The notes beneath the pieces were generated by a model. That model searched no databases. It was not told where the DNA came from and was given only the letters and a program-made list of their open reading frames with translations. Positions 14,463-60,984 of a stretch of DNA of 64,000 nt are shown here, piece after piece. The DNA is from Kineococcus rhizosphaerae. Lineage in GTDB: Bacteria > Actinomycetota > Actinomycetes > Actinomycetales > Kineococcaceae. The stretch spans positions 62,001 to 126,000 of the forward strand of contig NZ_PVZF01000012.1 in NCBI RefSeq assembly GCF_003002055.1, read 5' to 3'. Each line of letters starts with the position of its first letter. Positions within the stretch are counted from its first letter, which is position 1. The translations under genes were made by a program, and so were the position numbers.

Positions 14463-15854
14463 GTGAGCACCGAAGCCACCACCCCGGACGTCACGCGTGA
14501 CGTCCCCCTGCCCCGCAGCACGCCGTCCGCGCAGGGCGTCGACGCACGCGGCATCGCGTCGTTCGTGGACGCGCTGGAGAACACCCCCGGCGTCGAGCCG
14601 CACAGCCTGCTGGTCCTGCGCCACGGCCACGTCGTGGCCGAGGGCTGGTGGGCGCCGTTCCGGCCCGAGCGGCCCCACCTGCTGTACTCGCTGTCGAAGA
14701 GCTTCACCTCGACGGCGCTCGGGTTCGCCGTCGCCGAGGGGATCGTCGACCTCGACGCGACGGTCCTGTCCTACTTCCCCGAGCACGACGACGAGATCAC
14801 CGACGACCGTTCCCGGCGCATCCTGGTCCGCCACGTCGCGAACATGGCCAGCGGCCACCGCGAGGAGACCCTGGGCCGGGCGGCGGAAGACCCCAGCGGC
14901 GACATCGTCAAGGGTTTCCTGAAGATCCGCCCGGACGAAGAACCCGGGACCCTGTTCTGCTACAACCAGCCCTGCACGTTCTCGGTGTCCGCGATCGTGC
15001 AGCGCGCCTCCGGCCAGGGGCTCCTGGAGTACCTGCGGCCCCGGCTGCTCGAACCCCTCGGGGTCTCCCCGGAGAACCTCGGGTGGCTGCGCGACGGCCG
15101 CGACCGTGAACTCGGCTGGTCGGGCTTCCACGCCCCCACCGAACTCATCGCCAAGCTCGGGCAGCTGTACCTGCAGCGCGGCGTCTGGGAGGGCCAGCAG
15201 GTCCTGCCCGAGGCGTGGGTGGTCGAGGCGACCCGCTCGCACATCGACAACGCGAGCTTCAACGACAACCCCGACTGGCAGCAGGGGTACGGGTTCCAGT
15301 TCTGGATCGCCCGGCACGGGTACCGCGGGGACGGCGCGTACGGGCAGTTCTGCGTCGTGCTGCCCGAGCAGGACGCGGTCGTGGCGATCACGTCCCAGAG
15401 CCCGGACATGCAGGCCGTGCTCGACGCGGCGTGGGAGCACCTGCTCCCGGCCCTGACCGCCGATCCGCCCGGCGACGCCACGGCCCACGACGAGGCGCTC
15501 GCCCACCGGTTGTCCGCGCTGGAACTTCCTGCGCTGCAGGGTCACCCGGTCGTCGAGGGGGAGTTCACCGCGGCCCCCGGCAGCGAACCCGCCAGTTTGA
15601 CGGCGGTGAGCACCTCGGGTGGGGAACTCGCTCTGCACGACTCGGGTGACACCCTCACCGCCGCGATCGGCCAGGGTTCCTGGGCCGACACCGGCCCCCT
15701 GGCGGTCTCCGGGGCGGGGTCGCGGGTCGACGTCCGGTTCGCCGAGACGCCGCACCTGCTGCACCTGGAGTTCGACGGTGAGCAGTTCACCGGTCGCTGG
15801 GAGACCGGACCCCTGCACGCCCCCGCGCTGAGCACGCTGCGCCGGCCGTCGTGA
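14463..15854 (+). CDS. Serine hydrolase, beta-lactamase/class C family
   Basis: 463 residues, no signal peptide. Nucleophile motif SLSKSF (SxxK) near residue 78 and a YxN-like CYNQP near residue 165. Other family landmarks are DLDATVLSYFPEH, RHVANMASGH and YGFQFWIARHGYRGDGAYGQFCVVLPEQDAVVAITS, which ends with the HGG-like region. Related cytoplasmic enzymes cleave esters, amides or D-amino acid peptides; this is not necessarily a true beta-lactamase. A C-terminal beta-rich extension of about 110 residues follows (EGEFTAAPG onwards). The TAGAGT box supports this GTG. The stop overlaps the lyase-like gene start (GTGA), so the two are coupled. Confidence 0.85.
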   Translation: MSTEATTPDVTRDVPLPRSTPSAQGVDARGIASFVDALENTPGVEPHSLLVLRHGHVVAEGWWAPFRPERPHLLYSLSKSFTSTALGFAVAEGIVDLDATVLSYFPEHDDEITDDRSRRILVRHVANMASGHREETLGRAAEDPSGDIVKGFLKIRPDEEPGTLFCYNQPCTFSVSAIVQRASGQGLLEYLRPRLLEPLGVSPENLGWLRDGRDRELGWSGFHAPTELIAKLGQLYLQRGVWEGQQVLPEAWVVEATRSHIDNASFNDNPDWQQGYGFQFWIARHGYRGDGAYGQFCVVLPEQDAVVAITSQSPDMQAVLDAAWEHLLPALTADPPGDATAHDEALAHRLSALELPALQGHPVVEGEFTAAPGSEPASLTAVSTSGGELALHDSGDTLTAAIGQGSWADTGPLAVSGAGSRVDVRFAETPHLLHLEFDGEQFTGRWETGPLHAPALSTLRRPS

Positions 15855-17272
15855 TCGTCCACCGGGGAGCCGACCTCGACCGGGCAGCGGTCCTGCGGGT
15901 CGCGGCCGGCGCCCCGGTGGAACTGGCCCCCGGCCTCCTGGCGACGGTGGGGGCGTCCCGCGGGGCGCTGCTCGCGGCGCTGGAGGGTTCCGGCCCCGTC
16001 TACGGCGTGACGACGGGCATGGGGGCCATGGCCGGCGTCACCCTCGACGCCCGTGCCCGCGCCGCGCACCAGGACAACCTCGTCGTGGGCCGGGCCGTCG
16101 GCTCGGCCCCGTGGTTGTCGGTGCCGCAGGTCCGCGCGGTGCTGGCCGTGCGGCTGCGGACGTTCCTGCACCCCGAGGCGGGGGTCTCGCCCGAACTGTG
16201 CCTGCGGCTGGCCGACCTGCTGAACCGGGGCGTGCACCCGCGCGTGCCCCTGCGCGGCAACGGGGCCGCGGGGGAGATCATCCCCCTGGCCCACGTCGGG
16301 GCCGTCGTGCTCGGCGGTGCGGACACCCTCGACGGCCGCAGCGGTGGGCCCGCCGGGTTCGGGACCAAGGAGGGCGTGGCGTTCCTGGAGGGGGTCCCCG
16401 TCGCGACCGCCCTGGCGACGCTGGCCGTCCAGGAGGTCTCCACGCTCCTCGACGACGCCGAGCGCGTGCTGGCCGCGACCTCGGAGGTGCTGCGCTCCAG
16501 CCCCGACCCCGTGCGTCCGGGGGCCGCCCGCGCCGACGACGTCCTCGAGGTGGTCCACACCCGGCTGCGGGCCCTGCGACCGGCCCCGCACGTCCACGGG
16601 CTGCAGGCCCCCCTCTCGGTCCGGGTCGCGCCCGCGGCGGTCGCGCTGGTCCGCCGCCGGGCGGGCGACCTCGCCGCGGCCGCGGACCGGGCCCTGGAGG
16701 GGGTCACGGACTCCCCGGCGTTCTGGGACGGGCGGTTCGCGGGCACGGCGGGTTTCGCCGGGACCGAGCTGGCCGGCGGGTCGGACGCGCTGGCCGCGGC
16801 GGTGCTGCACCTGGCCGAGACGTCGGTGGCCCGCACGCACCGCACGCTCGACCCCCGGCTGACCGGGCTGAACCCGCAGCTGTCGCCGGAGCCGGGGGCG
16901 CAGGCCGGGCTGGTGGCCGTGCACAAGCGGGCCGTCGGGGTCGCGCACCGGCTGCGGCGCTTCGCCGTCCCCGCGCTGACGGGGCCGGTGGAGACGTCGC
17001 TGGGTCAGGAGGACGTGCAGAGCTTCGCGCTGGAGGCGGCCGAGTCGCTGGCCGAGGTCGTCGCGGGCCTGCGCGAGGTCCTCGCGGTCGAGCTCCTGGC
17101 GGTGCACCGCGCGCGGCTGCTGCGCGGGGGACTGGCCGGGATCTCCCCCGACCTCACGGGGCTCCTGGACCGGGTGGCCGACGAGCTGGGCGAGGAGGTC
17201 GTGGACCGGCCCTACGGCCGGGACGTGGAGGCGCTCGTGGGGCTGCTCGGGGGTTCGCTCAGCCGGTCGTGA
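15851..17272 (+). CDS. Aromatic amino acid lyase (HAL/PAL) homologue lacking the MIO triad
   Basis: 473 residues. Family features: VYGVTTGMGAM with the conserved catalytic-loop Tyr, AAHQDNLVVGRAVGS, KEGVAFLEGVPVATAL, LSVRVAP with the substrate-carboxylate Arg, and TSLGQEDVQSFALEAAESL with the QED motif. The normal VGASGDLAPLAH sequence, whose Ala-Ser-Gly cyclises to the MIO cofactor, reads NGAAGEIIPLAH here (residues 137-148): Ser is replaced by Ala. The Asn of the usual NG motif is Glu, and the GGNFHG region reads FAGTELAGG. A conventional ammonia-lyase reaction is therefore unlikely. MIO-independent chemistry, for example loss of a better leaving group such as trimethylamine, is possible. 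It is coupled to the serine hydrolase. Confidence 0.82.
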   Translation: MIVHRGADLDRAAVLRVAAGAPVELAPGLLATVGASRGALLAALEGSGPVYGVTTGMGAMAGVTLDARARAAHQDNLVVGRAVGSAPWLSVPQVRAVLAVRLRTFLHPEAGVSPELCLRLADLLNRGVHPRVPLRGNGAAGEIIPLAHVGAVVLGGADTLDGRSGGPAGFGTKEGVAFLEGVPVATALATLAVQEVSTLLDDAERVLAATSEVLRSSPDPVRPGAARADDVLEVVHTRLRALRPAPHVHGLQAPLSVRVAPAAVALVRRRAGDLAAAADRALEGVTDSPAFWDGRFAGTAGFAGTELAGGSDALAAAVLHLAETSVARTHRTLDPRLTGLNPQLSPEPGAQAGLVAVHKRAVGVAHRLRRFAVPALTGPVETSLGQEDVQSFALEAAESLAEVVAGLREVLAVELLAVHRARLLRGGLAGISPDLTGLLDRVADELGEEVVDRPYGRDVEALVGLLGGSLSRS

Positions 17273-18260
17273 ACCGCGTGGAGTCGCGCACCACCAGGTG
17301 CGGGCGGAACACGACGGGGTCGGGCACCTCGCCGTCCCCGCCCAGGGCCAGGAGCTGCTCGACGGCGGCGGCGACGATCGCGTCCTCGTCCCAGGAGACC
17401 GTGGTGAGCGCGGGAGCCACGAGCGCGGCGAGCTGGTGGTCGTCGAAGCCGACGACGGACACGTCGCCGGGGATGCGCAGCCCGAGGTCGGCGGCGGCGC
17501 GGTAGACCCCGAAGGCGAGGGAGTCGGACAGGCAGAACACCGCGGTGGGGCGCCGGTCGGCGGACAGCACCCCGGCGGCGGCCTCGGCGGCGCCCGCGGG
17601 GGAGGCGGGGGCCGGCACGACGAGGAGCTCGATGCCGCGCGGCTGCGCGAGCTGCACCGCCAGCCGCTCCGAGGGGCGGCCGGGGGTGGTGGGCAGGGAC
17701 GGGGTCAGCAGCGCGACCCGCCGGTGCCCGCGCTCGGCGAGGTGGTCCAGGACCGCCCCGATCCCGAACCCGTTGTCGAACAGCACCGCTCCGCTGCCGG
17801 GGCGGGCGGTGAGGGCGTCGCCGATGGAGACGACGGCCGTGGAGGCGGGCAGCAGGCGCCAGTGGTCCGCCGACGGGTCGACGGGGGAGACCAGCGCGCC
17901 GTCGACGCGCTGGGCCGCGAACCGCTCCACCACCCGCCGCTCCACGCGGGGGTCGGCGTCGGCGTCAGCGATGGTCGCGTCCTTGTCGACCGTGCGCAGG
18001 GCGCGGGTGAGCAGGACGGACAGGTCCTGCTGCCACAGGTCGCGCAGCGAACCGCTGATCCCCACGGTGCCGGTCCGGCCGCTGGCCAGGGCGCGGGCGA
18101 TGGGGTCGACGCGGTAGCCGAGCTCGAGCGCGAGCGCCTGGACGCGCTCGATGGTCGCGGCCGACCCGCGGGTCCCGCGCAGGGCGTAGGAGGTGGCGGC
18201 CAGGGACAGCCCGGCGGCGTCGGCGACGTCCTGCAGCGTGCGGCGTGAGTCCCTCGGCAC
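17259..18260 (-). CDS. LacI family transcriptional regulator
   Basis: 333 residues. N-terminal helix-turn-helix TLQDVADAAGLSLAATSYALRG, then the hinge region with LALELGYRVDPIARALASGRTGTVGI and a periplasmic-binding-protein-like effector domain (ISGSLRDLWQQ, VSIGDAL, DNGFGIGAVLDHLAERGHRRVALLTP, FGVYRAAADLGLRIPGDVSVVGFDDHQLAALVAPALTTVSWD). The GTG at 18260 is preferred because TACTGT lies 6 nt upstream and the HTH begins soon after; a longer frame reaches 18341 through operator DNA. Its 3' end overlaps the lyase-like gene by 14 nt. The twin GTGAAGCGCTTCAC palindromes between it and the amidohydrolase gene are the obvious operators. Effector unknown. Confidence 0.9.
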   Translation of the reverse strand: MPRDSRRTLQDVADAAGLSLAATSYALRGTRGSAATIERVQALALELGYRVDPIARALASGRTGTVGISGSLRDLWQQDLSVLLTRALRTVDKDATIADADADPRVERRVVERFAAQRVDGALVSPVDPSADHWRLLPASTAVVSIGDALTARPGSGAVLFDNGFGIGAVLDHLAERGHRRVALLTPSLPTTPGRPSERLAVQLAQPRGIELLVVPAPASPAGAAEAAAGVLSADRRPTAVFCLSDSLAFGVYRAAADLGLRIPGDVSVVGFDDHQLAALVAPALTTVSWDEDAIVAAAVEQLLALGGDGEVPDPVVFRPHLVVRDSTRFTTG

Positions 18261-18266
18261 GGCTGA

Positions 18267-18272
18267 ACAGTA
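18267..18272 (-). promoter_or_regulatory. -10 box of lacI-type gene (leaderless)
   Basis: TACTGT on the minus strand, 6 nt before the GTG at 18260. Confidence 0.5.
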
Positions 18273-18313
18273 ACCGGCGGGCGTTCGAGTGCCCGTCGAA
18301 CTGGGGCGGGTAG

Positions 18314-18364
18314 TTGACACCTCGTTTGTGAAGCGCTTCACTCAGTAGGAGTGAAGCGCTTCAC
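18314..18364 (+). promoter_or_regulatory. Promoter with two LacI-type operators
   Basis: TTGACA (18314-18319) is a good -35 box. Two identical 14-bp palindromes GTGAAGCGCTTCAC follow at 18328-18341 and 18351-18364, 23 bp apart centre to centre. They have the central CG typical of LacI/CcpA-type sites. A weak -10 (TTCACT, 18338-18343) would overlap the first operator, and the second would cover the transcription start. This arrangement predicts repression of the amidohydrolase-dioxygenase operon. Confidence 0.85.
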
Positions 18365-18382
18365 GGAACAGGGGGTGATGGA

Positions 18383-19282
18383 GTGCGGACCGACTGCCAC
18401 CAGCACCTGTGGCCCGCAGCGCTCCTCGACGCCCTGCGCGAGCGCACCGACCCCCCGTACCTGCGCGGCTGGACCCTGCACCTGCCCGGCGAACCGCCCT
18501 GCGCGATCGACCCCGCCGCCCACGACGTCGACGTCCGCCGCACCCTCGAACGCGCCGACGGCACCGCCCGCGCCCTCGTCTCGTTGAGCTCCCCCCTCGG
18601 CCTGGAGCACCTGCCGGGGGAGGAGGCCGAACCCCTCCTGCGCGCCTGGCACGACGGCGCGCGGGCCTTCGGGGACCCGTTCGGCCTCTGGGCCGCCGCC
18701 GGCGTGACCGACCTCGACCCCGCCGGTCTCGCCGCGACCCTGCGCCACGAGCGCGTCGTCGGCCTCCAGCTGCCCGCCACCGCGCTGGCCACCCCGCGGG
18801 CCGTCGAACGCCTCGCCCCGCTGCTGACCGAGTGCGAACGCGCCGGCAAGCCCGTGCTGGTCCACCCCGGCCCCGCCGCCGGCACCGGCGACGACGTCCC
18901 TGGCTGGTGGCCCGCCCTCGTCCCCTACGTCCAGCAGCTGCAGGCGGCCTGGCACGCCTGGCACACCGCCGACCACCCCGCCGTCCGGATCTGCTTCGCG
19001 GCGCTCGCCGGGCTGGCCCCGCTGCACCACGAACGGCTCGCCGCCCGCGGCGGGGCGCTGGGCCGGCTCGACCCCGACGTGCACTACGAGACGAGCTCGT
19101 ACGGGCCCCGCGCCGTCGACGCCCTCGTGCGCGTCGTGGGGGTCGACCCCGTCGTCCTGGGCACCGACCGGCCCTACGCCCAGCCGTTCGAGGCGGCCGA
19201 CCTGCCCGGGTTCGGGGCCGCCTTCGCCCACGCCCTGACCACCGCCAACCCCGCCCACCTGCTCGAAGGGAGCCGACCGTGA
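18383..19282 (+). CDS. Amidohydrolase 2 family protein (metal-dependent TIM barrel)
   Basis: 299 residues from GTG. The N-terminus RTDCHQHLWP carries the HxH metal ligands (His6, His8). Further features are KPVLVHPGPAAG with the next His, HYETSSYG and VVLGTDRPYAQP with the catalytic Asp, then NPAHLLEG, the usual C-terminal Asn-Ala-x-x-Leu segment. Members hydrolyse amides or lactones or decarboxylate aromatic acids. The short WPAALLDALRERTDPPYLRGWTLHLPG insertion near the N-terminus suggests a specialised pocket. It is controlled by the twin operators just upstream and coupled by GTGA overlap to the dioxygenase-like gene. The substrate is unknown; a cyclic intermediate from the lyase-like enzymes is a reasonable guess. 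Confidence 0.83.
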   Translation: MRTDCHQHLWPAALLDALRERTDPPYLRGWTLHLPGEPPCAIDPAAHDVDVRRTLERADGTARALVSLSSPLGLEHLPGEEAEPLLRAWHDGARAFGDPFGLWAAAGVTDLDPAGLAATLRHERVVGLQLPATALATPRAVERLAPLLTECERAGKPVLVHPGPAAGTGDDVPGWWPALVPYVQQLQAAWHAWHTADHPAVRICFAALAGLAPLHHERLAARGGALGRLDPDVHYETSSYGPRAVDALVRVVGVDPVVLGTDRPYAQPFEAADLPGFGAAFAHALTTANPAHLLEGSRP

Positions 19283-19788
19283 CCCTCGCCCCCGACACCC
19301 CGCACCTGCCCGCCCCGCCCGGGCGCACCCTGAGCCCGCGCGAGCTGAAGGCCTGGGTCGACGCCGCCGCCCGCACCCCCGCGGCCTGGGAGCACCTCGT
19401 CCGGCACGACACCGGCGGGCGCCACTTCGCCAGCCTGCACCGCGACGGGGACCTCGACGTCTGGGTCCTGTGCTGGAACACCGTGGACGACACCGGCTGG
19501 CACGACCACGACACCTCCTCCGGCGCCGTCGCCGTCACCCGCGGGGCCGTCACCGAGGCCAACCCCCGGATGGGCGGCGACCCCGTCGTGCGCACCGTCG
19601 CGGCGGGACGGTCCTTCGCCTTCGGCCCCGACCACATCCACCGGATGACCGGCGCCGTCGACGGGTCCGTCTCGATCCACGCCTACTCCCCGCCGCTGTG
19701 GCGGATGGGGCAGTACTCGATCTCCCCGTCCGGGGTGATGCGCCGCACCTCGATTAGCTACGCCGACGAGCTGCGCCCCCTGGACTGA
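19279..19788 (+). CDS. Cysteine dioxygenase-like cupin (thiol dioxygenase)
   Basis: 169 residues from the GTG overlapping the amidohydrolase stop. A single cupin domain with the three-His iron site: WHDHDTSSGAV (two His) and DHIHRMTG (third His). The SIHAYSPPLWRM segment matches the Ser-x-His-x-Tyr triad of cysteine/3-mercaptopropionate dioxygenases. These enzymes oxidise a thiol to a sulfinate using Fe(II) and oxygen. Leader residues LKAWVDAAARTPAAWEHLVRHDTGGRHFASLHRDGDLDVWVLCWN are typical of bacterial type I enzymes. Cysteine is one candidate substrate, but a pathway-specific thiol is equally plausible given the neighbours. Confidence 0.85.
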   Translation: MTLAPDTPHLPAPPGRTLSPRELKAWVDAAARTPAAWEHLVRHDTGGRHFASLHRDGDLDVWVLCWNTVDDTGWHDHDTSSGAVAVTRGAVTEANPRMGGDPVVRTVAAGRSFAFGPDHIHRMTGAVDGSVSIHAYSPPLWRMGQYSISPSGVMRRTSISYADELRPLD

Positions 19789-19866
19789 GCGGGCGGACCG
19801 CACCGACCGCGTTCGCCCCTCGGGGTCGTCAGCCTCCACGACGTGCAGGAACTCCGCACCCATCGG

Positions 19867-19907
19867 GCGACACGCCGACGACCACAGCCCGGACACCGGC
19901 GTGTCGC
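19867..19907. terminator. 11-bp inverted repeat between convergent genes
   Basis: GCGACACGCCG (19867-19877) pairs exactly with CGGCGTGTCGC (19897-19907) around a 19-nt loop, in the 213-bp gap between the dioxygenase-like gene and the convergent lyase-like gene. It may be a bidirectional terminator, or an operator. The rest of the gap holds nothing recognisable. Confidence 0.4.
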
Positions 19908-20001
19908 GGAACGGGTGCAGGATCCGCGCACACCCCGGCCGATGGCACGGTCGTCCCGCCGTCCGGACGATCGTCCCCGTCCCCGTCCTGCCGGGCGGGT
20001 C

Positions 20002-21507
20002 CTAGCCCTCCAGCCGCAGGAACAGCGCCAGGTCCGCCACCCGCTCGACGACCCGTTCGACGTCGGGACCGATCGGGGCGTCCCGCGCGTCGCGGTCCAG
20101 GATCTCGTCGAACACCCCGAACAGCGCCGCCGCGCCGGGGGAGAGGCGGTCCGGCGCCGCCCGCAGCGCCCGGACCGCCGCCAGGGCCTCCACGGCCAGC
20201 ACCAGCGGCGCCAGGTCGGCCGTCTGCCGCAGCGCCCGCGCGCCCTGTGTGGCGAAGCTCGCGTGCTCCTCCAGCCCCAGCGAGATCGACACCGTCCCCG
20301 CCGTCATCGGGGCCGTCGCCGGCCGCAGCTCCGCCAAGGCGTCCTGCACGACGTACTCGCCGATCATCAGCCCCGAGCTGCCGCGCGGACCGGCCGCCAG
20401 GAACGCGCGCAGCCCGGTGTGCTCGGGCCGCAGCAGCAGCGCCAGCCGCGCCGCCGACAACGTGAGCACCCCGTACGTGGTGGCGCGCAACGTGTCCAGG
20501 GCCGTCGCCAGCGAGGCCGCGTGGAACTGCCCGTGGTGGAAGACGCCGTCGGGGGAGACCAGCGGGTTCTCCCCCGGCGTCGAGGCCTCCAGGGTGAGCA
20601 CGTCGCCCAGCGCGTCGGCCGCCGCGAACGCCGGCGCCAGCACCTGCGGGACCGTCCGCAGCGCGAACGGGTCCTGCAGTCGCGCCGCCCGCGGCCCGCC
20701 GTCCACCAGGGCGTGCAGCGCCGCCGCGACCTCGGGCTGACGCGGGTGCGGGCGCGCCGCGTGCACCCGCGGCGCCCACGCCTGCGGGTTGCCGCGCAGG
20801 GCCAGGAACGACAGCGCCGAGATCCCCAGCCCCGCCAGCAGCAGCTGGCGCAACCGGACCAGGGCCAGCGACGCCGTCGCCAGCGTCAGCGCGTGCGAGG
20901 AGATCAGCGGCAGCGCGTCGGCCGCCCCCAGCGGCGCCGGCGGGACCGACCCCGACCGCCAGGGGCGCTCGCCGACCAGCGTCAGCCCCAGCTCGGCCAA
21001 CGGGGCCAGGTCCGAGGTCCCGATGCCCCCGAAGCGGTGCAGCGTCGGCAGCGCGCCCGTCTCCACCGCGTCGGCCAGCGCGCCCAGCACGGGAGCGCTG
21101 ACGCCCGCGCCCAGCCCCGCGTGCGCCCCCGCGAGCAGCTGGTTCAGCCGCACCACGAGCGCGGCCCGGGTCGTCGGCTCGTCCTCGACCGGCCCCAGCG
21201 ACGCCGCGTGCGAGCGCAGCAGCCGCAACCCGTGCGCCCGGGGGTGCTCCTCCTGCTCCTCGTCGACCTCGACGTCCTTGTTCGCGCCCACGCCCGTCGT
21301 CGCCCCGTACACCGCCCCGGCCCCGCGCGCAGCGTCCATCGCCGCCTCCAGCGCCCCCAGCGAGCCCAGCACCACCCGGTCCACGACCGGCCGGGCCCGC
21401 CCGTGCGCGACGTCGTCCAGGTCCTCCAGGCTCAGGGCCCGACCCGACAACGCGACCCCCGGAGTCGCGCCCCGGGACCGCTGGTGCTCCACTTGTCCTC
21501 CACGCAC
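20002..21507 (-). CDS. Second aromatic amino acid lyase (HAL/PAL) family protein, variant triad
   Basis: 501 residues; start uncertain between GTG at 21507 and GTG at 21492, the latter with GGAGGA just upstream. Family features: YGATTGVGAN (catalytic Tyr loop), LQDPFALRTVPQ (substrate Arg), GENPLVSPDGVFHHGQFHA and LGLEEHASFATQGA, equivalents of the NPL, GGNFHG and QEDH regions. Where MIO enzymes have GASGDLAPLA this one has IGTSDLAPLA (Thr164-Ser165-Asp166 from the first start), one residue shorter, so standard Ala-Ser-Gly cyclisation is doubtful. It is closer to functional lyases than the protein at 15851. It diverges from the ABC importer operon across a shared promoter region containing a 25-bp inverted repeat. 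Confidence 0.82.
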   Translation of the reverse strand: MRGGQVEHQRSRGATPGVALSGRALSLEDLDDVAHGRARPVVDRVVLGSLGALEAAMDAARGAGAVYGATTGVGANKDVEVDEEQEEHPRAHGLRLLRSHAASLGPVEDEPTTRAALVVRLNQLLAGAHAGLGAGVSAPVLGALADAVETGALPTLHRFGGIGTSDLAPLAELGLTLVGERPWRSGSVPPAPLGAADALPLISSHALTLATASLALVRLRQLLLAGLGISALSFLALRGNPQAWAPRVHAARPHPRQPEVAAALHALVDGGPRAARLQDPFALRTVPQVLAPAFAAADALGDVLTLEASTPGENPLVSPDGVFHHGQFHAASLATALDTLRATTYGVLTLSAARLALLLRPEHTGLRAFLAAGPRGSSGLMIGEYVVQDALAELRPATAPMTAGTVSISLGLEEHASFATQGARALRQTADLAPLVLAVEALAAVRALRAAPDRLSPGAAALFGVFDEILDRDARDAPIGPDVERVVERVADLALFLRLEG

Positions 21508-21536
21508 GACCGCTGGTGGGTCTTCCTGGGAGAGGT

Positions 21537-21561
21537 CACGATCAGGTGTCGGCTGATCGTG
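21537..21561. promoter_or_regulatory. 25-bp inverted repeat, probable operator
   Basis: CACGATCAG-GTGTCGG-CTGATCGTG: perfect 9-bp arms and a 7-bp spacer, in the divergent region between the lyase-like gene and the importer operon. It sits just upstream of the importer -35 box. No gene for a matching regulator is adjacent, and the LacI operator differs in sequence. Confidence 0.65.
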
Positions 21562-21566
21562 CCTCG

Positions 21567-21595
21567 TTGACCGGTTCCTGCCCTGTGCTCAGCAT
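21567..21595 (+). promoter_or_regulatory. Promoter of the ABC importer operon
   Basis: TTGACC (21567-21572) and CAGCAT (21590-21595) with a 17-bp spacer. Transcription should start about 30 nt before the GTG at 21632, leaving a GGGAG ribosome site in the leader. Confidence 0.5.
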
Positions 21596-21631
21596 GTACC
21601 AGCCCACAGGTCCAACCCGGGAGCCGCCCCA

Positions 21632-22582
21632 GTGATCACGTTCGAGGCCGTCCGCAAGCAGTTCCCCGACGGGACGGTGGCCGTCGACGGCCTCGACCTG
21701 GAGCTCCCCACCGGGCGGATCACCGTCTTCGTGGGCCCCTCGGGCTGCGGCAAGACGACGTCGCTGCGGATGATCAACCGGATGATCGAGCCCACCGGCG
21801 GCACCGTCGCGATCGACGGGAAGGACGTCCGCGCCCAGGACCCCGCCACCCTGCGCCGCGGCATCGGCTACGTCATCCAGCACGCCGGGCTCTTCCCGCA
21901 CAAGACCGTGCTCGACAACGTCCTGACCGTGCCCAAGCTGGTCGGCAGGGGGCGCGAAAGGAACCGCGCCCTGGAACTGCTCGAACGCGTCGGGCTGCCG
22001 GCGGCCTTCGCCGACCGGTACCCCGCCCAGCTGTCCGGCGGCCAGCAGCAGCGCGTCGGCGTCGCCCGGGCGCTCGCGGCCGACCCGCCCGTCATGCTCA
22101 TGGACGAACCCTTCAGCGCCGTCGACCCCATCGTCCGGGCCCAGCTGCAGGAGGAGTTCCTGCGCCTGCAGGCCGAGCTGGGCAAGACCATCGCGATCGT
22201 CACCCACGACATCGACGAGGCCGTCGTCCTCGGTGACCGGATCGCCGTCTTCCGCCAGGGCGGGCACCTCGCGCAGGTCGGGACCCCCGAGGAACTGCTC
22301 ACGAAACCCGCCGACGAGTTCGTCCGGAACTTCGTGGGCCGCGACCGCGGCTACCGCGGCCTGAGCTTCCAGCGCAGCGACGACCTGCTCCTGCACCCCT
22401 TCCCGGCGGGCCGGTCCCTGGACGGCGAGGGCACGTTCCGCGACGGGGACTCGCTGCGCGTGGTCGTCGACCTGACCCTCACGTCCCCGACGGGGACCGC
22501 CGTCAAGGTCGACGCCGATGGCCGGCCGCTGGGGTTCGTGCACCACCGCGACGTCGTCGACCTGCTGGAGCAGCGCCGGTGA
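21632..22582 (+). CDS. ABC transporter ATPase, OpuCA/ProV-like quaternary-amine type
   Basis: 316 residues. Walker A GPSGCGKTTSL near residue 38, Q-loop in YVIQHAGLFPH, signature LSGGQQQRVGVARAL, Walker B VMLMDEPFSAVDPIVR and the switch His in IVTHDIDEAV. YVIQHAGLFPHKTV is characteristic of glycine betaine/choline/carnitine importers. The C-terminal 70 residues (HPFPAGRSLDGEGTF to PLGFVHHRDVVDLLEQ) are a shortened regulatory tail. It is roughly one CBS-like unit, where OpuCA usually has two, so ionic-strength gating may differ. GTG start; the stop overlaps the first permease gene. Confidence 0.88.
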   Translation: MITFEAVRKQFPDGTVAVDGLDLELPTGRITVFVGPSGCGKTTSLRMINRMIEPTGGTVAIDGKDVRAQDPATLRRGIGYVIQHAGLFPHKTVLDNVLTVPKLVGRGRERNRALELLERVGLPAAFADRYPAQLSGGQQQRVGVARALAADPPVMLMDEPFSAVDPIVRAQLQEEFLRLQAELGKTIAIVTHDIDEAVVLGDRIAVFRQGGHLAQVGTPEELLTKPADEFVRNFVGRDRGYRGLSFQRSDDLLLHPFPAGRSLDGEGTFRDGDSLRVVVDLTLTSPTGTAVKVDADGRPLGFVHHRDVVDLLEQRR

Positions 22583-23235
22583 GCGATATTGTGAAGTACC
22601 TGCGGGACAACCACTCGACGGTCCTGGACGCCCTCGGACAGCACGTGCTCCTCGCGGTCCTGCCGCTGCTGATCGGCGTCGTCGTGGCCCTTCCCGTCGG
22701 GTACCTCGGCGTGCGGTTCGGCTGGCTGTACCACCCCCTGCTCAACGTCTCCGGGCTGATCTACTCGATCCCCTCGCTGGCGGTCTTCGTGGCCCTGCCG
22801 TACGTGCTGCACACGAAGATCCTCTCGCCGGTCAACATCGTCGTGGCGCTGGCGCTGTACACGGTGGCGCTCATGGCCCGGACCGTGGCCGACGGGTTGC
22901 GATCGGTCGACCCGGCGCTGACCGAGGCGGCCACCGCGATGGGGTACAAGCGGACCCGGCGCCTGCTGGAGGTCGAACTCCCGCTGGCCGCGCCGGTCAT
23001 CCTCGCCGGGGTGCGGGTGGCCGCGGTGTCGAACATCTCCCTGGTCAGCGTCGGGGCGCTGCTGGGGGTCGGGGGGCTCGGCGCGTTGTTCACCCGCGGG
23101 TTCCAGCTGTTCTACACCGCCCCCATCGTTGTGGGGATCGTGCTGTCCATCGCGCTGGCCGCGCTCGCGGACCTGTTGATCGTGCTGTTCCAGCGGGCGG
23201 TCACGCCGTGGACCCGCGCCGTGAAGGGAGCCTGA
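22579..23235 (+). CDS. ABC importer permease 1 (OpuCB/ProW-like)
   Basis: 218 residues, GTG start overlapping the ATPase gene stop. Five to six transmembrane helices (VLLAVLPLLIGVVVALPVGYLG; LIYSIPSLAVFVALPYVL; NIVVALALYTVALMARTV; APVILAGVRVAAVSNISLVSVGALLG; PIVVGIVLSIALAALADLLIVLF). The EAA coupling loop is VDPALTEAATAMGYKRTRRLLEVELPLA. It forms half of the membrane channel and would pair with the product of the next permease gene, one nucleotide downstream. Separate permeases plus a separate binding protein distinguish this from EgtU-type fusions. Confidence 0.87.
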   Translation: MSDIVKYLRDNHSTVLDALGQHVLLAVLPLLIGVVVALPVGYLGVRFGWLYHPLLNVSGLIYSIPSLAVFVALPYVLHTKILSPVNIVVALALYTVALMARTVADGLRSVDPALTEAATAMGYKRTRRLLEVELPLAAPVILAGVRVAAVSNISLVSVGALLGVGGLGALFTRGFQLFYTAPIVVGIVLSIALAALADLLIVLFQRAVTPWTRAVKGA

Positions 23236-23236
23236 C

Positions 23237-23992
23237 GTGGACGGCAAGCCCTACCTGCTCGACGGTGCGAACTGGACCTGGTCGGGCACCGGGACCATCC
23301 CGCACCTGCTGGTGTCCCACCTGGGGTACACGTTCTTCGCCGTCCTCGTGGGTTTCGTCATCGCGTTCCCGCTGGGTCTGCTCATCGGGCACACGGGCAG
23401 GGGCTCGTTCCTGGCCATCAACGCCGGCAACGCGGGGCGGTCCCTGCCGACCCTGGGGCTGCTGAGCCTGCTCGTCGTGCTCATGGGTCTGGGGTTCACC
23501 CCCGTCCTCATCGCCCTGGTCGTCCTCGTGATCCCCCCGATCCTCACCTCCACGTACGCGGGGCTGCGCTCGGTGGACCAGAACGCCGTCGACGCGGCCA
23601 AGGGAATGGGCATGAGCTCCACCCAGGTGCTGTTCCGCGTCGAGCTCCCGATCGCGTTGCCCGTGGTCTTCGGCGGGATCCGGGCCGCGGTGCTGCAGGT
23701 CGTGGCGACCGCGACGGTGGCCGCCTACGTCGGGGGCAGCGGGCTGGGACGACTGCTGGTCGACGGGCTGGCCCTCAACGACTACGGCCAGATGGTCGCC
23801 GGGGCGGTCGTCGTCGCGGTGCTGGCCATCGTGCTGGACCTGCTCCTGGGCCTGGTCCAGCGCTACGCCGTCTCACCCGGACTCACCGGCCGCGGGTTGA
23901 AGCGCGCACGGGGAACGCGATCCGTGGCAGAGTCCGGGGCGATCCCGGACGAAGAACTCATCAGTGCAGGCTCGTCGAAAGGCACGTCATGA
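23237..23992 (+). CDS. ABC importer permease 2 (OpuCD-like)
   Basis: 251 residues from GTG, one base after the first permease stop. Five or six helices (LGYTFFAVLVGFVIAFPLGLLIG; TLGLLSLLVVLMGLGFTPVLIALVVLVIPPIL; AAVLQVVATATVAAYVG; MVAGAVVVAVLAIVLDLLLGLV). The coupling loop is VDQNAVDAAKGMGMSSTQVLFRVELPIAL. A charged cytoplasmic C-terminal tail of about 35 residues follows. It pairs with permease 1. The stop overlaps the binding-protein ATG (ATGA). Confidence 0.87.
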   Translation: MDGKPYLLDGANWTWSGTGTIPHLLVSHLGYTFFAVLVGFVIAFPLGLLIGHTGRGSFLAINAGNAGRSLPTLGLLSLLVVLMGLGFTPVLIALVVLVIPPILTSTYAGLRSVDQNAVDAAKGMGMSSTQVLFRVELPIALPVVFGGIRAAVLQVVATATVAAYVGGSGLGRLLVDGLALNDYGQMVAGAVVVAVLAIVLDLLLGLVQRYAVSPGLTGRGLKRARGTRSVAESGAIPDEELISAGSSKGTS

Positions 23993-24927
23993 ACCGCAGG
24001 AACCTCCTCGGCCTCGCCCTCCTGGGCTCCGTGACCGCGGGGTTGGCCGCGTGCGGCGGAGGCGGCGACCCGCTGAGCAGCACCTCCAGCAGCACCACGA
24101 GCGGTTCGGCCGACTCCAGCTCGGTCATCATCGGGTCCGCGAACTTCCCTGAGAGCGAGCTCATCGCCGAGATGTACGCCCAGGTCCTCGAGGGCAAGGG
24201 CGTCAAGGTCGAGCGCAAGTTCAACATCGGCGCCCGTGAGCTCTACCTCAAGGCCCTGGACGACGGGTCCATCGACCTGCTGCCGGAGTACAACGGCGCG
24301 CTGCTGGCGTACTACCTCAAGGGCGACGCGCCCCAGGGGGTGTCCAGCCCTGAGCAGGTGCTGGACGCGCTCAAGCCCAAGCTGCCCTCGGGACTGGAGG
24401 TCCTGGACCAGGCGGCCGCCGAGGACAAGGACTCCCTGTCGGTCAGCTCCGACACCGCGTCGAAGTACAACCTCAAGAGCATCGCCGACCTGGCACCGGT
24501 GGCCAAGGACCTCGTCGCCGGCGGCGGCCCGGAGTTCGTCAAGCGCTACCAGGGCCTGGTCGGGCTCAAGGAGCTGTACGGCGTCGAGTTCAAGGAGTTC
24601 AAGTCCCTCGACCCGGGCGGCCCGCTGACCGTCGGGGCGCTCAAGGACGGCACCATCCAGGTCGGCAACATCTTCACCACCGACTCGGCCATCACGACGA
24701 ACAAGTTCACGGTCCTGGAGGACCCCAAGAACCTGTTCCTGGCCCAGAACGTGCTGCCGCTCATCCGGTCCTCGAAGAGCAACGACACGATCGCCTCCGC
24801 GCTCAACGCGTTCTCGGCCAAGCTGACGACCGAGAACCTCACCGAGTACCTGTCCAAGGTCCAGGTGGACAAGCAGGACTCCGCCACGGTGGCCAAGGCG
24901 TTCCTGTCGGCCAACGGCCTGGCCTGA
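23989..24927 (+). CDS. Substrate-binding lipoprotein, quaternary-amine (OpuAC-like) family
   Basis: 312 residues. Signal sequence NRRNLLGLALLGSVTAGLAAC ends in lipobox LAAC, followed by a Ser/Thr/Gly-rich linker, so it is lipid-anchored outside the membrane. The mature protein begins SVIIGSANFPESELIAEMYAQVLEGKGVKVERKFNIGARELYLKALDDGSIDLLPEYNG in segments typical of choline/glycine betaine-binding proteins (FPES, PEYNG). Such proteins bind quaternary ammonium groups in an aromatic cage. Candidate cage residues cannot be fixed without a structure. It gives the importer its specificity. The substrate could be a common osmolyte or, from the neighbouring lyase-like genes, an amino-acid betaine. 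Confidence 0.87.
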   Translation: MNRRNLLGLALLGSVTAGLAACGGGGDPLSSTSSSTTSGSADSSSVIIGSANFPESELIAEMYAQVLEGKGVKVERKFNIGARELYLKALDDGSIDLLPEYNGALLAYYLKGDAPQGVSSPEQVLDALKPKLPSGLEVLDQAAAEDKDSLSVSSDTASKYNLKSIADLAPVAKDLVAGGGPEFVKRYQGLVGLKELYGVEFKEFKSLDPGGPLTVGALKDGTIQVGNIFTTDSAITTNKFTVLEDPKNLFLAQNVLPLIRSSKSNDTIASALNAFSAKLTTENLTEYLSKVQVDKQDSATVAKAFLSANGLA

Positions 24928-26021: not shown

Positions 26022-28208
26022 TCAGGCCGGGACGAGCCAGGTGACACCCAGCGGCGGCACCCGCAGCGCGGTGGAGAACTCCTGGCCGTTCCAGGCCATC
26101 TGCTCGGCCTCGAGCGTCCCGGTGTTGACGACCCCGGAGCCGGCGAACTCCTCGGCGTCGGTGTTGAGGACCTCTCGCCAGGCCCCCGGCTGCGGCAGCC
26201 CGACCCGGAAGTCCTCGTACGCCGACCCGGAGAAGTTGCAGACCGCCACGAGCGGCTTGCGGTCAGTGCTCCAGCGGACGTAGGAGAGGACATTGCGCAG
26301 GTTGTCGCCGCCGTCGATCCACTGGAAGCCCTCGGACCGGAAGTCGTCGGACCACAGCTCTGGACGGTCCTTGTAGACGGCGTTCAGCTGCGAGACCAGG
26401 TGGTGCAGCCCCTTGTGCCACGGCGTGTCCAGCAGCCACCAGTCCAGCGACCGGGCCTCGGACCACTCCGACTCCTGCCCGAGCTCGGCCCCCATGAACA
26501 GCAGCTGCTTGCCGGGGTGGGACCACATGTAGGCCAGGTAGGCGCGGACGTTGGCGAGCTGCTGCCAGCGGTCGCCGGGCATCTTGCGCAGCAGCGACCC
26601 CTTGCCGTGCACGACCTCGTCGTGCGAGATCGGCAGCGTGAAGTTCTCGCTGAACGCGTACACCAGGCTGAACGTCAGCTCGCCGTGGTGCCACTGCCGG
26701 TTCACGGGGTCCTCGCTGATGTACCGCAGCGAGTCGTGCATCCAGCCCATGTTCCACTTCAGCCCGAAGCCGAGCCCGCCGCCGCTCGTGGGCGCGGTGA
26801 CGCCCGGGTACGCGGTGGACTCCTCGGCGATCATCATGATGCCGGGGGTGCGCTTGTAGGCCGTGGCGTTGGCCTCCTGCAGGAACGAGATCGCCTCGAG
26901 GTTCTCCCGGCCGCCGTAGCGGTTCGGGACCCACTCACCCTCGTTGCGGGAGTAGTCCAGGTACAGCATCGAGGCCACGGCGTCGACCCGCAGGCCGTCG
27001 GCGTGGAACTCCTCCAGCCAGTACAGCCCGGAGGCGACGAGGAAGTTGCGGACCTCGCTGCGGCCGAAGTTGGGGATGTAGGTGCCCCAGTCCATGTGCT
27101 CGCCCAGGCGCGGGTCCGGGTGCTCGTACAGCGCGGTCCCGTCGAAGCGGGCCAGGGCGAACTCGTCCTTGGGGAAGTGGCCGGGGACCCAGTCGATGAT
27201 GACGCCGATGCCGGCCCGGTGCAGGGAGTCGATGAGGAAGCGCAGCTCGTCGGGGGAGCCGAACCGCGACGTCGGGGCGAAGTACCCCGTCACCTGGTAG
27301 CCCCACGACCCGCCGAAGGGGTGCTCCATGACGGGCAGGAACTCGACGTGCGTGAACCCCGTGGCCTTCACGTAGTCGACGAGCTCGGTCGCGAGCTCGG
27401 TGTAGCTCAGACCCTGCTTCCAGGACCCCAGGTGCACCTCGTAGATGGAGACCGGCCCGTCCTGGGCGACCTTCGCCGCCCGCTGCTCGAGCCAGTCGGC
27501 GTCGTTCCACTCGTAGCTGCTCTCGGTGACGACCGAGGCCGTCGCGGGCGGGACCTCGCTGTACTGGGCCATCGGGTCGGCCTTCTGCCGCCAGTGCCCG
27601 TCGGCGCCGAGGATCTCGTACTTGTAGCGCGAACCGAGCCCCACCCCGGGCAGGAAGACCTCCCACACGCCGGACGAGCCGAGCGAGCGCATGCCCTCGC
27701 CGCGCCCGTTCCAGTGGTTGTGGTCGCCGACGACGCGCACCGCGCGGGCGTTGGGCGCCCACACGGCGAACGAGGTGCCCTCGACCGGGCCCAGCGGGCC
27801 CTTCCAGCGCTTGACGTGCGAGCCGAGGACGTTCCACAGCTCCTCGTGCCGGCCTTCGCCGATGAGGTGCAGGTCGACCTCACCCACGGTGGGCAGGAAG
27901 CGGTAGGGGTCGTCCACCACGAGGGGTTCGGCGTCGGGGTAGGTGACCTCGACCCGGTAGTCGCCGACGGCGCTGTCCGGGCGGACCCCGACCCACACCC
28001 CGTCGTACTCGTGGACGAGCCCGACGCGCGAGCCGTCCTCGGTGAGGACCGTGACCGCGGAGGCGAACGGCTTCAGGACGCGGTAGGTGACACCGCCGTC
28101 GTGCGCGTGCGCGCCGAGGACCGAGTGCGGGGACCAGTGCGCGCCGGCGGCGGCCCGGGCCAGGTCGTCGGCGTCGACAGGGCGGGGGACGATGGCTTGA
28201 CCGGTCAT
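26022..28208 (-). CDS. glgB: 1,4-alpha-glucan branching enzyme
   Basis: 728 residues, full length. It makes alpha-1,6 branches in glycogen or in the polymer built by GlgE. An N-terminal N1 domain and CBM48 module (SPHSVLGAHAHDGGVTYRVLKPF; EGTSFAVWAPNARAVRVVGDHN) precede a GH13 catalytic barrel. Catalytic residues are visible: nucleophile Asp in GLRVDAVASMLYLDYS, acid/base Glu in MIAEESTAYPG, and transition-state Asp in PISHDEVVHGKGS. A C-terminal beta domain ends the protein. It lies 37 nt after the maltokinase gene in a glgE-mak-glgB operon, in agreement with a GlgE-type pathway. Confidence 0.97.
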   Translation of the reverse strand: MTGQAIVPRPVDADDLARAAAGAHWSPHSVLGAHAHDGGVTYRVLKPFASAVTVLTEDGSRVGLVHEYDGVWVGVRPDSAVGDYRVEVTYPDAEPLVVDDPYRFLPTVGEVDLHLIGEGRHEELWNVLGSHVKRWKGPLGPVEGTSFAVWAPNARAVRVVGDHNHWNGRGEGMRSLGSSGVWEVFLPGVGLGSRYKYEILGADGHWRQKADPMAQYSEVPPATASVVTESSYEWNDADWLEQRAAKVAQDGPVSIYEVHLGSWKQGLSYTELATELVDYVKATGFTHVEFLPVMEHPFGGSWGYQVTGYFAPTSRFGSPDELRFLIDSLHRAGIGVIIDWVPGHFPKDEFALARFDGTALYEHPDPRLGEHMDWGTYIPNFGRSEVRNFLVASGLYWLEEFHADGLRVDAVASMLYLDYSRNEGEWVPNRYGGRENLEAISFLQEANATAYKRTPGIMMIAEESTAYPGVTAPTSGGGLGFGLKWNMGWMHDSLRYISEDPVNRQWHHGELTFSLVYAFSENFTLPISHDEVVHGKGSLLRKMPGDRWQQLANVRAYLAYMWSHPGKQLLFMGAELGQESEWSEARSLDWWLLDTPWHKGLHHLVSQLNAVYKDRPELWSDDFRSEGFQWIDGGDNLRNVLSYVRWSTDRKPLVAVCNFSGSAYEDFRVGLPQPGAWREVLNTDAEEFAGSGVVNTGTLEAEQMAWNGQEFSTALRVPPLGVTWLVPA

Positions 28209-28245
28209 GCGTGTGAGTCTCCCGTGATCGTCGGGGACCCGCCTC

Positions 28246-29637
28246 TCAGGACGGGTCGGACAGCAACCGGTGGACGGCGTCCAGCGGGATGCGCAGCCAG
28301 TCGGGCCGGTTGCGCGCTTCGTAGACCACCTCGTACAGGGCCTTGTCCAGTTCGAGCGCCGCCAGCAGCACCGCCTGGTCGCCGGTGCGGGGGTCGGATC
28401 CCGCGACGGCGCTGTACCCGTCGAGGAAGGCCTCCCGGCACCGCGCGCCCCAGGTCCCCGGCTCGGGGACCGTGGAGGCCGCGTAGTCGAAGGAGCGCAG
28501 CATCCCCGCGACGTCGCGCAGCGCGAGGTCCGGCAGGCTGCGCTCGGCCAGCGGCCGCAGCGGCTCGCCCTCGAAGTCCAGCAGCACCCAGCCGCGGGCG
28601 GCCGAGTGCAGCACCTGCCCGAGGTGGTAGTCGCCGTGGACCCGTTGCAGCGCAGGGGCGTGCGTGACGTGCCGGACGGCGTCGACGCGGGCGCGGGCGG
28701 CGGCGGCCACGTCGTGCAGCGCCGGGACGGCCGTGCACGCCCACGCCACGCGCTCCAGCAGTCCGTCGGCCAGCGCCGCCAGCCGCTCGGGCGTGGCCGG
28801 TTCGGTGGGCAGCTCGGCGGCGAGGACGGCGTGGACCTCGGCCGTGGCCCGGCCCAGTTCCCGCGCCTGCGCGCTGAAGTCCCGACCCTGCTCGACGGCG
28901 GCCGTCGCGACCCGCCAGGCGTCCTGCGAACCGGCGAGGAACTCGGTGACGTGCGCGAAGTGGCCCACGGCGAGCGACCCGTCGGTGCCGGTCCACTGCC
29001 CGTCCACCCACCCCGAGGGACGGGGGACCCGGCCGCAGCCGGCGTCGGCCAGCGCGGTCTGCACGACGACGTCGGGGTTGTCGCCCGCGGACAGCACCCG
29101 GAACACCTTGGCGATGAGCGGTGTCTCGCCCTCGTCGGCCGAGACCACGATCGAGGTGTTCGACTGCTCGCCGGACAGGACCTTGGTCCGCAGCCCCGCG
29201 GGGACGGGCAGGCCGCCCTCGGCGCTGTGGCCGTGGACGCCGAACGTCGTCGACCCCGCCCCCTCCTCGGCGGCCACCAGGGTCAGCAGGGCCCGCGTCC
29301 ACGTCGGGTCGTGCGGACCGTCGTAGATCCACGCCGGGGCCCCGTCGACGTCGGGCAGTTCCCCGACCAGGGCGTGCGCCAGGTCCGGGTCCGGGGCCGG
29401 GCGCACCGAGATCGGCACGGAGTAGACGGTGTGCGCGGCGTCGTGCCCCTCGCCGGAACGGACGGTCAGGGCAACCAGCTGCGCCACCCCGCCCTCGTCG
29501 AGCGGGGTGCGCTCGATGCGCTGGACGTGGGCGAGGACGCCCTTGTGGGCGAACCACCGCTGCCGGGGGGCCCACTCGCGCAGGAGCTCGGCGACGGCCT
29601 CGTCGGAGGCCTTGGACGTCACGACGGGAACTCCCAC
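28246..29637 (-). CDS. mak: Maltokinase
   Basis: 463 residues from GTG, 3 nt after the glgE stop; a second GTG five codons in is possible. It phosphorylates maltose with ATP to alpha-maltose-1-phosphate, the substrate of GlgE. Family features are an N-terminal cap (RQRWFAHKGV), LSGEQSNTSIVV and LIAKVFRVLSAGDNPDVVVQ in the nucleotide lobe, catalytic HGDYHLGQVLHS and the metal-binding LLDFEGEPLRPLAER. In many actinobacteria this protein is encoded next to or fused with trehalose synthase TreS. Here TreS is not in the window. Neighbours glgE and glgB support the role. Confidence 0.93.
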   Translation of the reverse strand: MGVPVVTSKASDEAVAELLREWAPRQRWFAHKGVLAHVQRIERTPLDEGGVAQLVALTVRSGEGHDAAHTVYSVPISVRPAPDPDLAHALVGELPDVDGAPAWIYDGPHDPTWTRALLTLVAAEEGAGSTTFGVHGHSAEGGLPVPAGLRTKVLSGEQSNTSIVVSADEGETPLIAKVFRVLSAGDNPDVVVQTALADAGCGRVPRPSGWVDGQWTGTDGSLAVGHFAHVTEFLAGSQDAWRVATAAVEQGRDFSAQARELGRATAEVHAVLAAELPTEPATPERLAALADGLLERVAWACTAVPALHDVAAAARARVDAVRHVTHAPALQRVHGDYHLGQVLHSAARGWVLLDFEGEPLRPLAERSLPDLALRDVAGMLRSFDYAASTVPEPGTWGARCREAFLDGYSAVAGSDPRTGDQAVLLAALELDKALYEVVYEARNRPDWLRIPLDAVHRLLSDPS

Positions 29638-29640
29638 GGC

Positions 29641-31683: not shown

Positions 31684-31689
31684 GGGGCG

Positions 31690-31695
31690 AACCTA
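31690..31695 (-). promoter_or_regulatory. -10 box of glgE (leaderless)
   Basis: TAGGTT on the minus strand, 6 nt before the GTG at 31683. Confidence 0.55.
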
Positions 31696-31801
31696 CCGAG
31701 CAGGGGGCCGCTCGTCGCGCGGGAGCGTCCGGGGGGTGGGGCTGCGGGGGGCCGATCGCCCGGCTGCGGCCGAAAGCGTCGCGCGGCGGTGATCACCGGT
31801 C

Positions 31802-31807
31802 TATGGT
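31802..31807 (+). promoter_or_regulatory. -10 box of glgP (leaderless)
   Basis: TATGGT, 7 nt before the GTG at 31815. It overlaps an in-frame ATG at 31803, which argues against that ATG being the start. Confidence 0.55.
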
Positions 31808-31814
31808 CGGCGCC

Positions 31815-60685: not shown

Positions 60686-60984
60686 AGGGACACCTCCACG
60701 AGACCGTCTGCCGTCACCCGGCACGGGTGCACGGCGATCGAACCCTCCCCGCCGGCCGCCTCACCCGTGGTGAGGTCGAACGCGGTCAGGTGCAGGGGGC
60801 AGACGACGACTGTCTCATCGATCTGCCCGTCCGCCAACGGCCCACCGGCGTGCGGGCAGGCGGCCTGCACGGCGCTGACCTTCCCGCTGCGGTGCCGGAA
60901 CAGCGCGACCTGCTCGCCGTCGACGACGTACGCGCGGCCCTCCCCGACGGGCAGGTCCTCCACGCTGCACACCGGGCGGCTCAC
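60682..60984 (-). CDS. nirD: Nitrite reductase small subunit (Rieske-type)
   Basis: 100 residues from GTG at 60984 overlapping the nirB stop. A Rieske [2Fe-2S] domain: CPHAGGPLADG (CxH) and VVCPLHLTAFDLTTG (CxxH). SRPVCSVEDLPVGEGRAYVVDGEQVALFRHRSGKVSAVQA at the start is typical of NirD. Some NirD proteins have lost the cluster ligands; these are intact here. It partners NirB in reduction of nitrite to ammonium with NAD(P)H. Confidence 0.92.
   Translation of the reverse strand: MSRPVCSVEDLPVGEGRAYVVDGEQVALFRHRSGKVSAVQAACPHAGGPLADGQIDETVVVCPLHLTAFDLTTGEAAGGEGSIAVHPCRVTADGLVEVSL

Follow-up and report, generated by a model that had tools for sequence, protein, structure and literature searches.

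A candidate gene cassette for oxidative breakdown of ergothioneine or a related thiohistidine betaine in Kineococcus rhizosphaerae

We analysed a stretch of 64,000 nt (the window) from a contig of the 5.61 Mb Kineococcus rhizosphaerae assembly, in which a locus at positions 14463–24927 encodes a serine hydrolase, two proteins of the histidine/phenylalanine ammonia-lyase (HAL/PAL) fold, termed here HAL-like A and HAL-like B, a LacI-family regulator, an amidohydrolase, a cupin of the thiol dioxygenase type, and an ATP-binding cassette (ABC) importer. We favor, at a probability of about 0.58, the reading that this cluster degrades ergothioneine, or a very close thiohistidine betaine, by an aerobic, oxidative route via hercynine and urocanate, with every substrate, every reaction and the repression by LacI being inferred. 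The importer would take up the substrate, the cupin would oxidize the C2 sulfur to a sulfinate, and the amidohydrolase, which resembles 2-amino-3-carboxymuconate-6-semialdehyde decarboxylase (ACMSD), would strip the sulfinate off the ring carbon, yielding hercynine and sulfite. HAL-like B, which lacks the 4-methylideneimidazole-5-one (MIO) cofactor triad, would then eliminate trimethylamine to form urocanate, and the ordinary HutU/HutF route would complete the breakdown, while LacI would repress the amidohydrolase–cupin operon through two tandem operators until induction.

The initial annotation had suggested a possible undescribed catabolic locus for a betaine- or thio-type amino acid. Its observation was confirmed and its interpretation is partly supported: the substrate class is plausible, with a histidine derivative as the best reading, but its step order is probably wrong, and an ergothioneine-type importer is not supported. 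To our knowledge, ergothioneine breakdown in aerobic bacteria is only partly worked out. Yan, Huang, and Zhang (2022) reportedly presented a bacterial ergothioneine sulfonate catabolic pathway, by its title a breakdown of oxidized ergothioneine. A literature search, covering open-licence PMC papers only, returned no title on this cassette; the route may still have been published.

Conservation of the locus and its sulfur module

Gene calls based on codon-position GC content, together with Pfam matches, confirmed ten genes within 14463–24927, at or very near the positions first annotated. The arrangement was conserved in five other Kineococcus genomes (L068–L072, with L068 cut inside permease 2), and Paractinoplanes, Labedella, Actinoplanes, and Nocardioides (L080, L086, L090, and L091) carry the full set except that the serine hydrolase is missing and a different gene precedes HAL-like A, which argues against a chance arrangement. 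Conserved co-occurrence in actinobacteria, on which the initial annotation had staked its proposal beforehand, was thus found in Kineococcus and four other genera. In other actinobacteria the locus separates into three modules, namely LacI divergent from amidohydrolase–cupin, HAL-like B divergent from the ABC importer, and a partner gene followed by HAL-like A.

The cupin (19279–19788, forward strand) is a cysteine dioxygenase (CDO)-type protein (PF05995, E = 2e-12), and both Pfam and the PDB sequence file label its family 'cysteine dioxygenase'. It matched the group of PDB entry 8qfl with 227 bits (E = 1.1e-66), is 65% identical to 8qfl, and falls inside the 8qfl clade in a tree, with 8qfl nesting within the group. 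CDO-like matches at 1e-10 were present in 130 of 296 genomes of the class; 18 of these, our own included, were at least 46% identical to the window cupin and the others at most 42%, giving a range of 46–76% for this group versus 29–42% for the remaining class CDOs. At 46%, L018/L067 is an outlier that the tree places, with a long branch, among those remaining CDOs; its 7.1 kb contig carries no amidohydrolase, so that 17 genomes is the safer clade size. Residues H75, H77, H121, H134, and Y136 were invariant in 23 aligned sequences and S132 was kept in at least 90%; His75, His77, and His121 together with the SIHAY motif at 132–136 reproduce the 3-His iron site and Ser-His-Tyr triad typical of thiol dioxygenases.

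Entry 8qfl is probably ergothioneine dioxygenase, and Nalivaiko, Vasseur, and Seebeck (2024) reportedly described this enzyme and a partner (PDB 8qfl–8qfr). Calling the cupin step 'undescribed' probably goes too far, because a clade member has solved structures and, reportedly, a published function. We propose that the window cupin may oxidize ergothioneine to the sulfinate. In PMC11818489, 'ergothioneine dioxygenase' is described as degrading ergothioneine to trimethylamine.

Of 17 loci whose cupin is at least 46% identical to that of the window (our own locus excluded), 16 have an amidohydrolase gene no more than 1.5 kb away, the miss being L067; none of the 12 other CDO loci fetched has one. 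In contrast to the reported 8qfl system, the window locus has lyases, importer, LacI, and operators attached. The window amidohydrolase (18383–19282, forward strand) alone gave no Pfam match at 0.01, and as a single sequence it matched PDB entries weakly (best E = 0.013); Amidohydro_2 was matched by 10 of its 22 aligned family members. A profile matched ACMSD (8.7e-10), isoorotate decarboxylase (6e-6), 5-carboxyvanillate decarboxylase (0.0023), and some uncharacterized metal-dependent hydrolases, and the HxH...H...D metal-ligand pattern shared with these three decarboxylases was present (HQH at 6–8, His161, and Asp262), in keeping with a protein of the ACMSD type. Decarboxylases of this type release CO2, whereas the window enzyme is proposed to release sulfite; loss of sulfinate from the imidazole C2 would be a reasonable parallel, and the decarboxylase profile therefore suits a putative desulfinase. 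At 60981–63515 the window also encodes a protein that resembles nitrite/sulfite reductases and has NAD(P)H and BFD domains.

The LacI-family gene (17259 to about 18260, reverse strand) matched Peripla_BP_3 (5e-33), and its LacI helix-turn-helix match (9.9e-6; 25.7 bits) just missed the cut-off of 27. A palindrome search of the gap between LacI and the amidohydrolase revealed two perfect 14-bp palindromes, GTGAAGCGCTTCAC, at 18328–18341 and 18351–18364, which have no further exact match anywhere in the genome and are predicted to bind LacI. The listed LacI open reading frame extends to 18341 and would overlap an operator; the start likely lies near 18260. When relatives were scanned with a motif leaving two positions between G and C free, a site with at most one mismatch was present in the LacI-divergent gap of 19 of 22 distinct loci having a close LacI orthologue (window included); L059 and L062 have a two-mismatch site and L054 has none. 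None of nine scanned loci without a close LacI orthologue had a site with at most one mismatch, and the background over 969 kb was 12 matches when up to two mismatches were allowed.

The idea that LacI governs the complete cassette was rejected, since sites occurred only in the LacI–amidohydrolase gap and in the LacI–importer gap of L088; a palindrome search upstream of the serine hydrolase and at HAL-like B/importer gave no LacI site. The latter gap contains a perfect 9-bp inverted repeat, CACGATCAG-N7-CTGATCGTG (21537–21561), intact in Kineococcus G303 and weaker in other relatives, which may be the site of a second regulator.

MIO-less HAL-fold proteins and a canonical urocanase

HAL-like A (15851–17272, forward strand, 473 amino acids; PF00221, 6.8e-78) and HAL-like B (20002–21507, reverse strand, 501 amino acids; PF00221, 1.1e-91) share their fold with HutH and lack its Ala-Ser-Gly triad, in agreement with the altered triads noted in the initial annotation: A reads GA-AGE and B reads IG-TSD, versus GASGD in Pseudomonas HutH. 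The two scored 197 and 214 bits against the hutH model (cut-off 539) and are 32–33% identical to the HutH of their own genome. Their loops have lost one residue in the position that is also shortened in ergothionase, a HAL-fold enzyme without MIO according to PMC13405746, so that the triad deletion is common to both proteins and the Treponema denticola enzyme (PDB 6s7j).

In a single tree of 32 rows, several of them partial sequences, HAL-like A, HAL-like B, ergothionase (6s7j and four plasmid relatives), and HutH formed four separate clades (support 100/100, 100/99, 100/100, and 98/98, respectively). Unlike the plasmid relatives, A and B thus lie outside the ergothionase clade, each in a supported clade of its own, and for this reason neither is classed as ergothionase; from sequence comparison, both may nonetheless work like it. 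The equivalents of Tyr53 and Glu414 were kept in all rows of the alignment. HAL-like B has GVG in nine of nine rows and N-K/R in seven (the window protein reads GVGANKD), which means that the ergothionase GVGxN(K/R) motif recurs in seven of nine, and at the HutH NGT position it has SSxA where ergothionases have SxNA. HAL-like A has Arg at HutH His83, and Glu, Gln, or Ala at HutH Asn195.

A plasmid search with HAL-like A at 1e-25 gave no matches. On plasmid 1 of Polaromonas sp. JS666 (L163, 5968–9697), an ergothionase-like gene forms one run with a gene of the ornithine-cyclodeaminase (OCD) family and a binding protein; OCD genes therefore accompany a MIO-less lyase outside actinobacteria too. 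On a Paracoccus saliphilus plasmid (L164, 546–7599), an ergothionase-like gene follows hutI-hutH-hutG-hutU, with a canonical hutU (943.5 bits), a hint that a MIO-less lyase may yield urocanate on this plasmid too.

The proposed route would enter the Hut pathway at urocanate, and the K. rhizosphaerae genome carries hutH-hutU-hutF elsewhere. A search for the hutU family found one gene, which scored 905.8 bits against the hutU model (cut-off 375), 646.6 against thiourocanate hydratase (NF058530, cut-off 930), and 719.1 against S-methyl thiourocanate hydratase (cut-off 880). Six hutU genes from cupin genomes (L051, L052, L086, L178, L183, and our own) scored 906–929 bits for hutU and 646–667 for thiourocanate hydratase. 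The absence of a thiourocanate-hydratase-like gene, remarked on in the initial annotation, is borne out as far as tested, and a thiourocanate hydratase route was set aside because the genes scored are canonical and below the hydratase cut-off. In both Labedella (L086) and Frigoribacterium (L178), hutU comes after the binding-protein gene; Nocardioides (L051/L091) and L052 have hutH-hutU near the amidohydrolase–cupin pair, and in L193 hutU lies 6 kb from a HAL-like B/importer unit.

Among 12 genomes of the Kineococcus family, seven had the cupin and eight had hutU, which was present in six of seven with the cupin and two of five without. EgtD, which methylates histidine during ergothioneine synthesis, was present in one of six Kineococcus genomes with the cupin and two of four without (G297 excluded); in this small sample, its scarcity is suggestive of scavengers.

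Importer, HAL-like A partners and neighboring genes

The importer operon is divergent from HAL-like B, as initially annotated, and consists, all on the forward strand, of a ProV-like ATPase (21632–22582; PF00005, 5.3e-36; TIGR01186, 306.3 bits, below the cut-off of 326.6), two permeases (22579–23235, PF00528, 9e-19; 23237–23992, PF00528, 1.4e-24), and an OpuAC substrate-binding protein with an altered quaternary-amine cage (23989–24927; PF04069, 2.1e-51; alignments). The defining residues of the ergothioneine importer EgtU, as given in PMC9732360, include the cage F293, Y341, Y419, and Y443, the carboxylate Lys242, and the invariant Gly244. The window protein belongs to the same OpuC-type family and keeps EgtU R379 and E375 (R186 and E182), but only two of the four cage positions are aromatic (Y101 and F229): Asp148 and Gln253 stand for Tyr341 and Tyr443, Ala51 for Lys242, Phe53 for Gly244, and Ala104 for Thr296. 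Like the glycine betaine protein AfProX, it has Phe at EgtU Gly244 and Asp at EgtU Asn339 (Asp146). An EgtU-type importer, raised in the initial annotation, was rejected on the missing signature residues, and with two cage positions, Lys242, and Gly244 lost, the cell may import a compound other than ergothioneine through it.

A contig scan with HAL-like A, covering the best 80 of 208 matches, gave 16 loci of at least 44% identity, the next matches falling to about 32%. In 11 of these 16, the gene immediately before HAL-like A belongs to the OCD family (assigned by Pfam in four loci, by similarity in the others), and an RpiR regulator adjoins OCD–HAL-like A in most of those loci. Of the rest, L078 has a serine hydrolase, L088 and L092 have neither, and L079 and L089 begin too near HAL-like A for the preceding gene to be seen. 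Together with its OCD-family or serine-hydrolase partner, HAL-like A probably serves as a second amine lyase that needs no cofactor and acts on a related compound; this role is the weakest part of our proposal.

The serine hydrolase itself (14463–15854, forward strand; beta-lactamase fold, SLSK at residue 76; PF00144, 7.3e-32; 204 bits to NF045925, far under the cut-off of 800) had orthologues only in Kineococcus among the scanned loci; it was set aside as a core enzyme, the OCD-family gene standing in its place in the 11 HAL-like A loci mentioned above. Four gene pairs (serine hydrolase/HAL-like A, amidohydrolase/cupin, ATPase/permease 1, and permease 2/binding protein) overlap by four bases, as is frequent between coupled genes. 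Rfam (gathering cut-offs) and tRNA scans of the 64-kb window gave no matches. Beyond the locus, 26022–34379 holds a glycogen/maltose-1-phosphate cluster encoding GlgB, a maltokinase N-cap protein, GlgE, and a glycogen phosphorylase-like gene.

Alternative explanations and implications

Several observations weigh against the hercynine route. Among 16 non-Kineococcus cupin genomes (G097 excluded from searches), HAL-like B (at least 40% identity) was present in eight, two of which also had HAL-like A (at least 44%), and the other eight had neither lyase, so that the lyase step is not universal; all 16 hold a HutH-like match of 32–35%. In two genomes, K. vitellinus (L078) and Marisediminicola (L088), HAL-like A and importer are present but neither a clade cupin nor hutU was found, so that HAL-like A and importer are not tied to this route. 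In K. siccus (G297), which has cupin and importer, hutU was not found, and in Kineococcus G304, where HAL-like B (at a contig end) and importer stand together, the cupin was not found. To these are added the lack of window LacI sites by either HAL-like A or the HAL-like B/importer unit, the binding-protein substitutions described above, and the L067 contig, a small loss. The enzyme activities are moreover proposed from sequence.

The step order could be the other one, as in the initial annotation, with HAL-like B (or A) first freeing trimethylamine to give thiourocanate, which the cupin and amidohydrolase then desulfurize to urocanate. This would share the ergothionase triad deletion and GVGxN(K/R) motif of HAL-like B as support, and, ending at urocanate, it fits the canonical hutU; however, HAL-like B lies outside the ergothionase clade, and the eight amidohydrolase–cupin genomes lacking both lyases make that order probably the reverse of the true one, even if a lyase of another family is conceivable. 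We consider it improbable. Still less probably, the cupin would be a dioxygenase of the ordinary kind, acting on cysteine or 3-mercaptopropionate, in a cluster for another thiol, for example ovothiol- or cysteine-derived: the database names of its family would suit this, but its distance from the other CDOs of the class and the amidohydrolase tie absent from their loci do not, and the urocanase linkage indicates an imidazole side chain.

It is also possible, if doubtful, that HAL-like A and its partner, of the OCD family or a serine hydrolase, work with the importer on some other amino acid or amine, in a pathway of their own that only happens to lie beside the sulfur module. L078 and L088 pair HAL-like A with the importer in genomes where neither clade cupin nor hutU was found, the OCD–HAL-like A–importer unit and the cupin of L081 are on different contigs, half of the binding-protein cage is replaced by acidic or polar residues, and the adjoining RpiR regulator is in keeping with a distinct unit. 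Against this, the cupin was present in nine of 15 HAL-like A genomes searched (L082 excluded, the truncated cupin of L085 uncounted) versus 18 of 296 class genomes (Fisher p = 2.5e-7, uncorrected for phylogeny), hutU being present in 12 of the 15, and the divergent importer is also paired with HAL-like B apart from HAL-like A, and away from the cupin, in L193 and L194 (L192 has HAL-like B without importer).

The hercynine route may tentatively be extended to a full aerobic ergothioneine-to-Hut pathway with two new families of cofactor-less HAL-fold lyases, in which B would be a hercynine lyase yielding urocanate and trimethylamine, and A would act with the OCD-family enzyme on a second quaternary amino acid whose breakdown is not yet known. 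As a portable cassette with named enzymes, the locus offers a directly testable route. If the proposal is true, it would provide a source of trimethylamine from ergothioneine besides ergothionase, and would add two lineages of MIO-less HAL-fold proteins that keep the Tyr53 and Glu414 positions.

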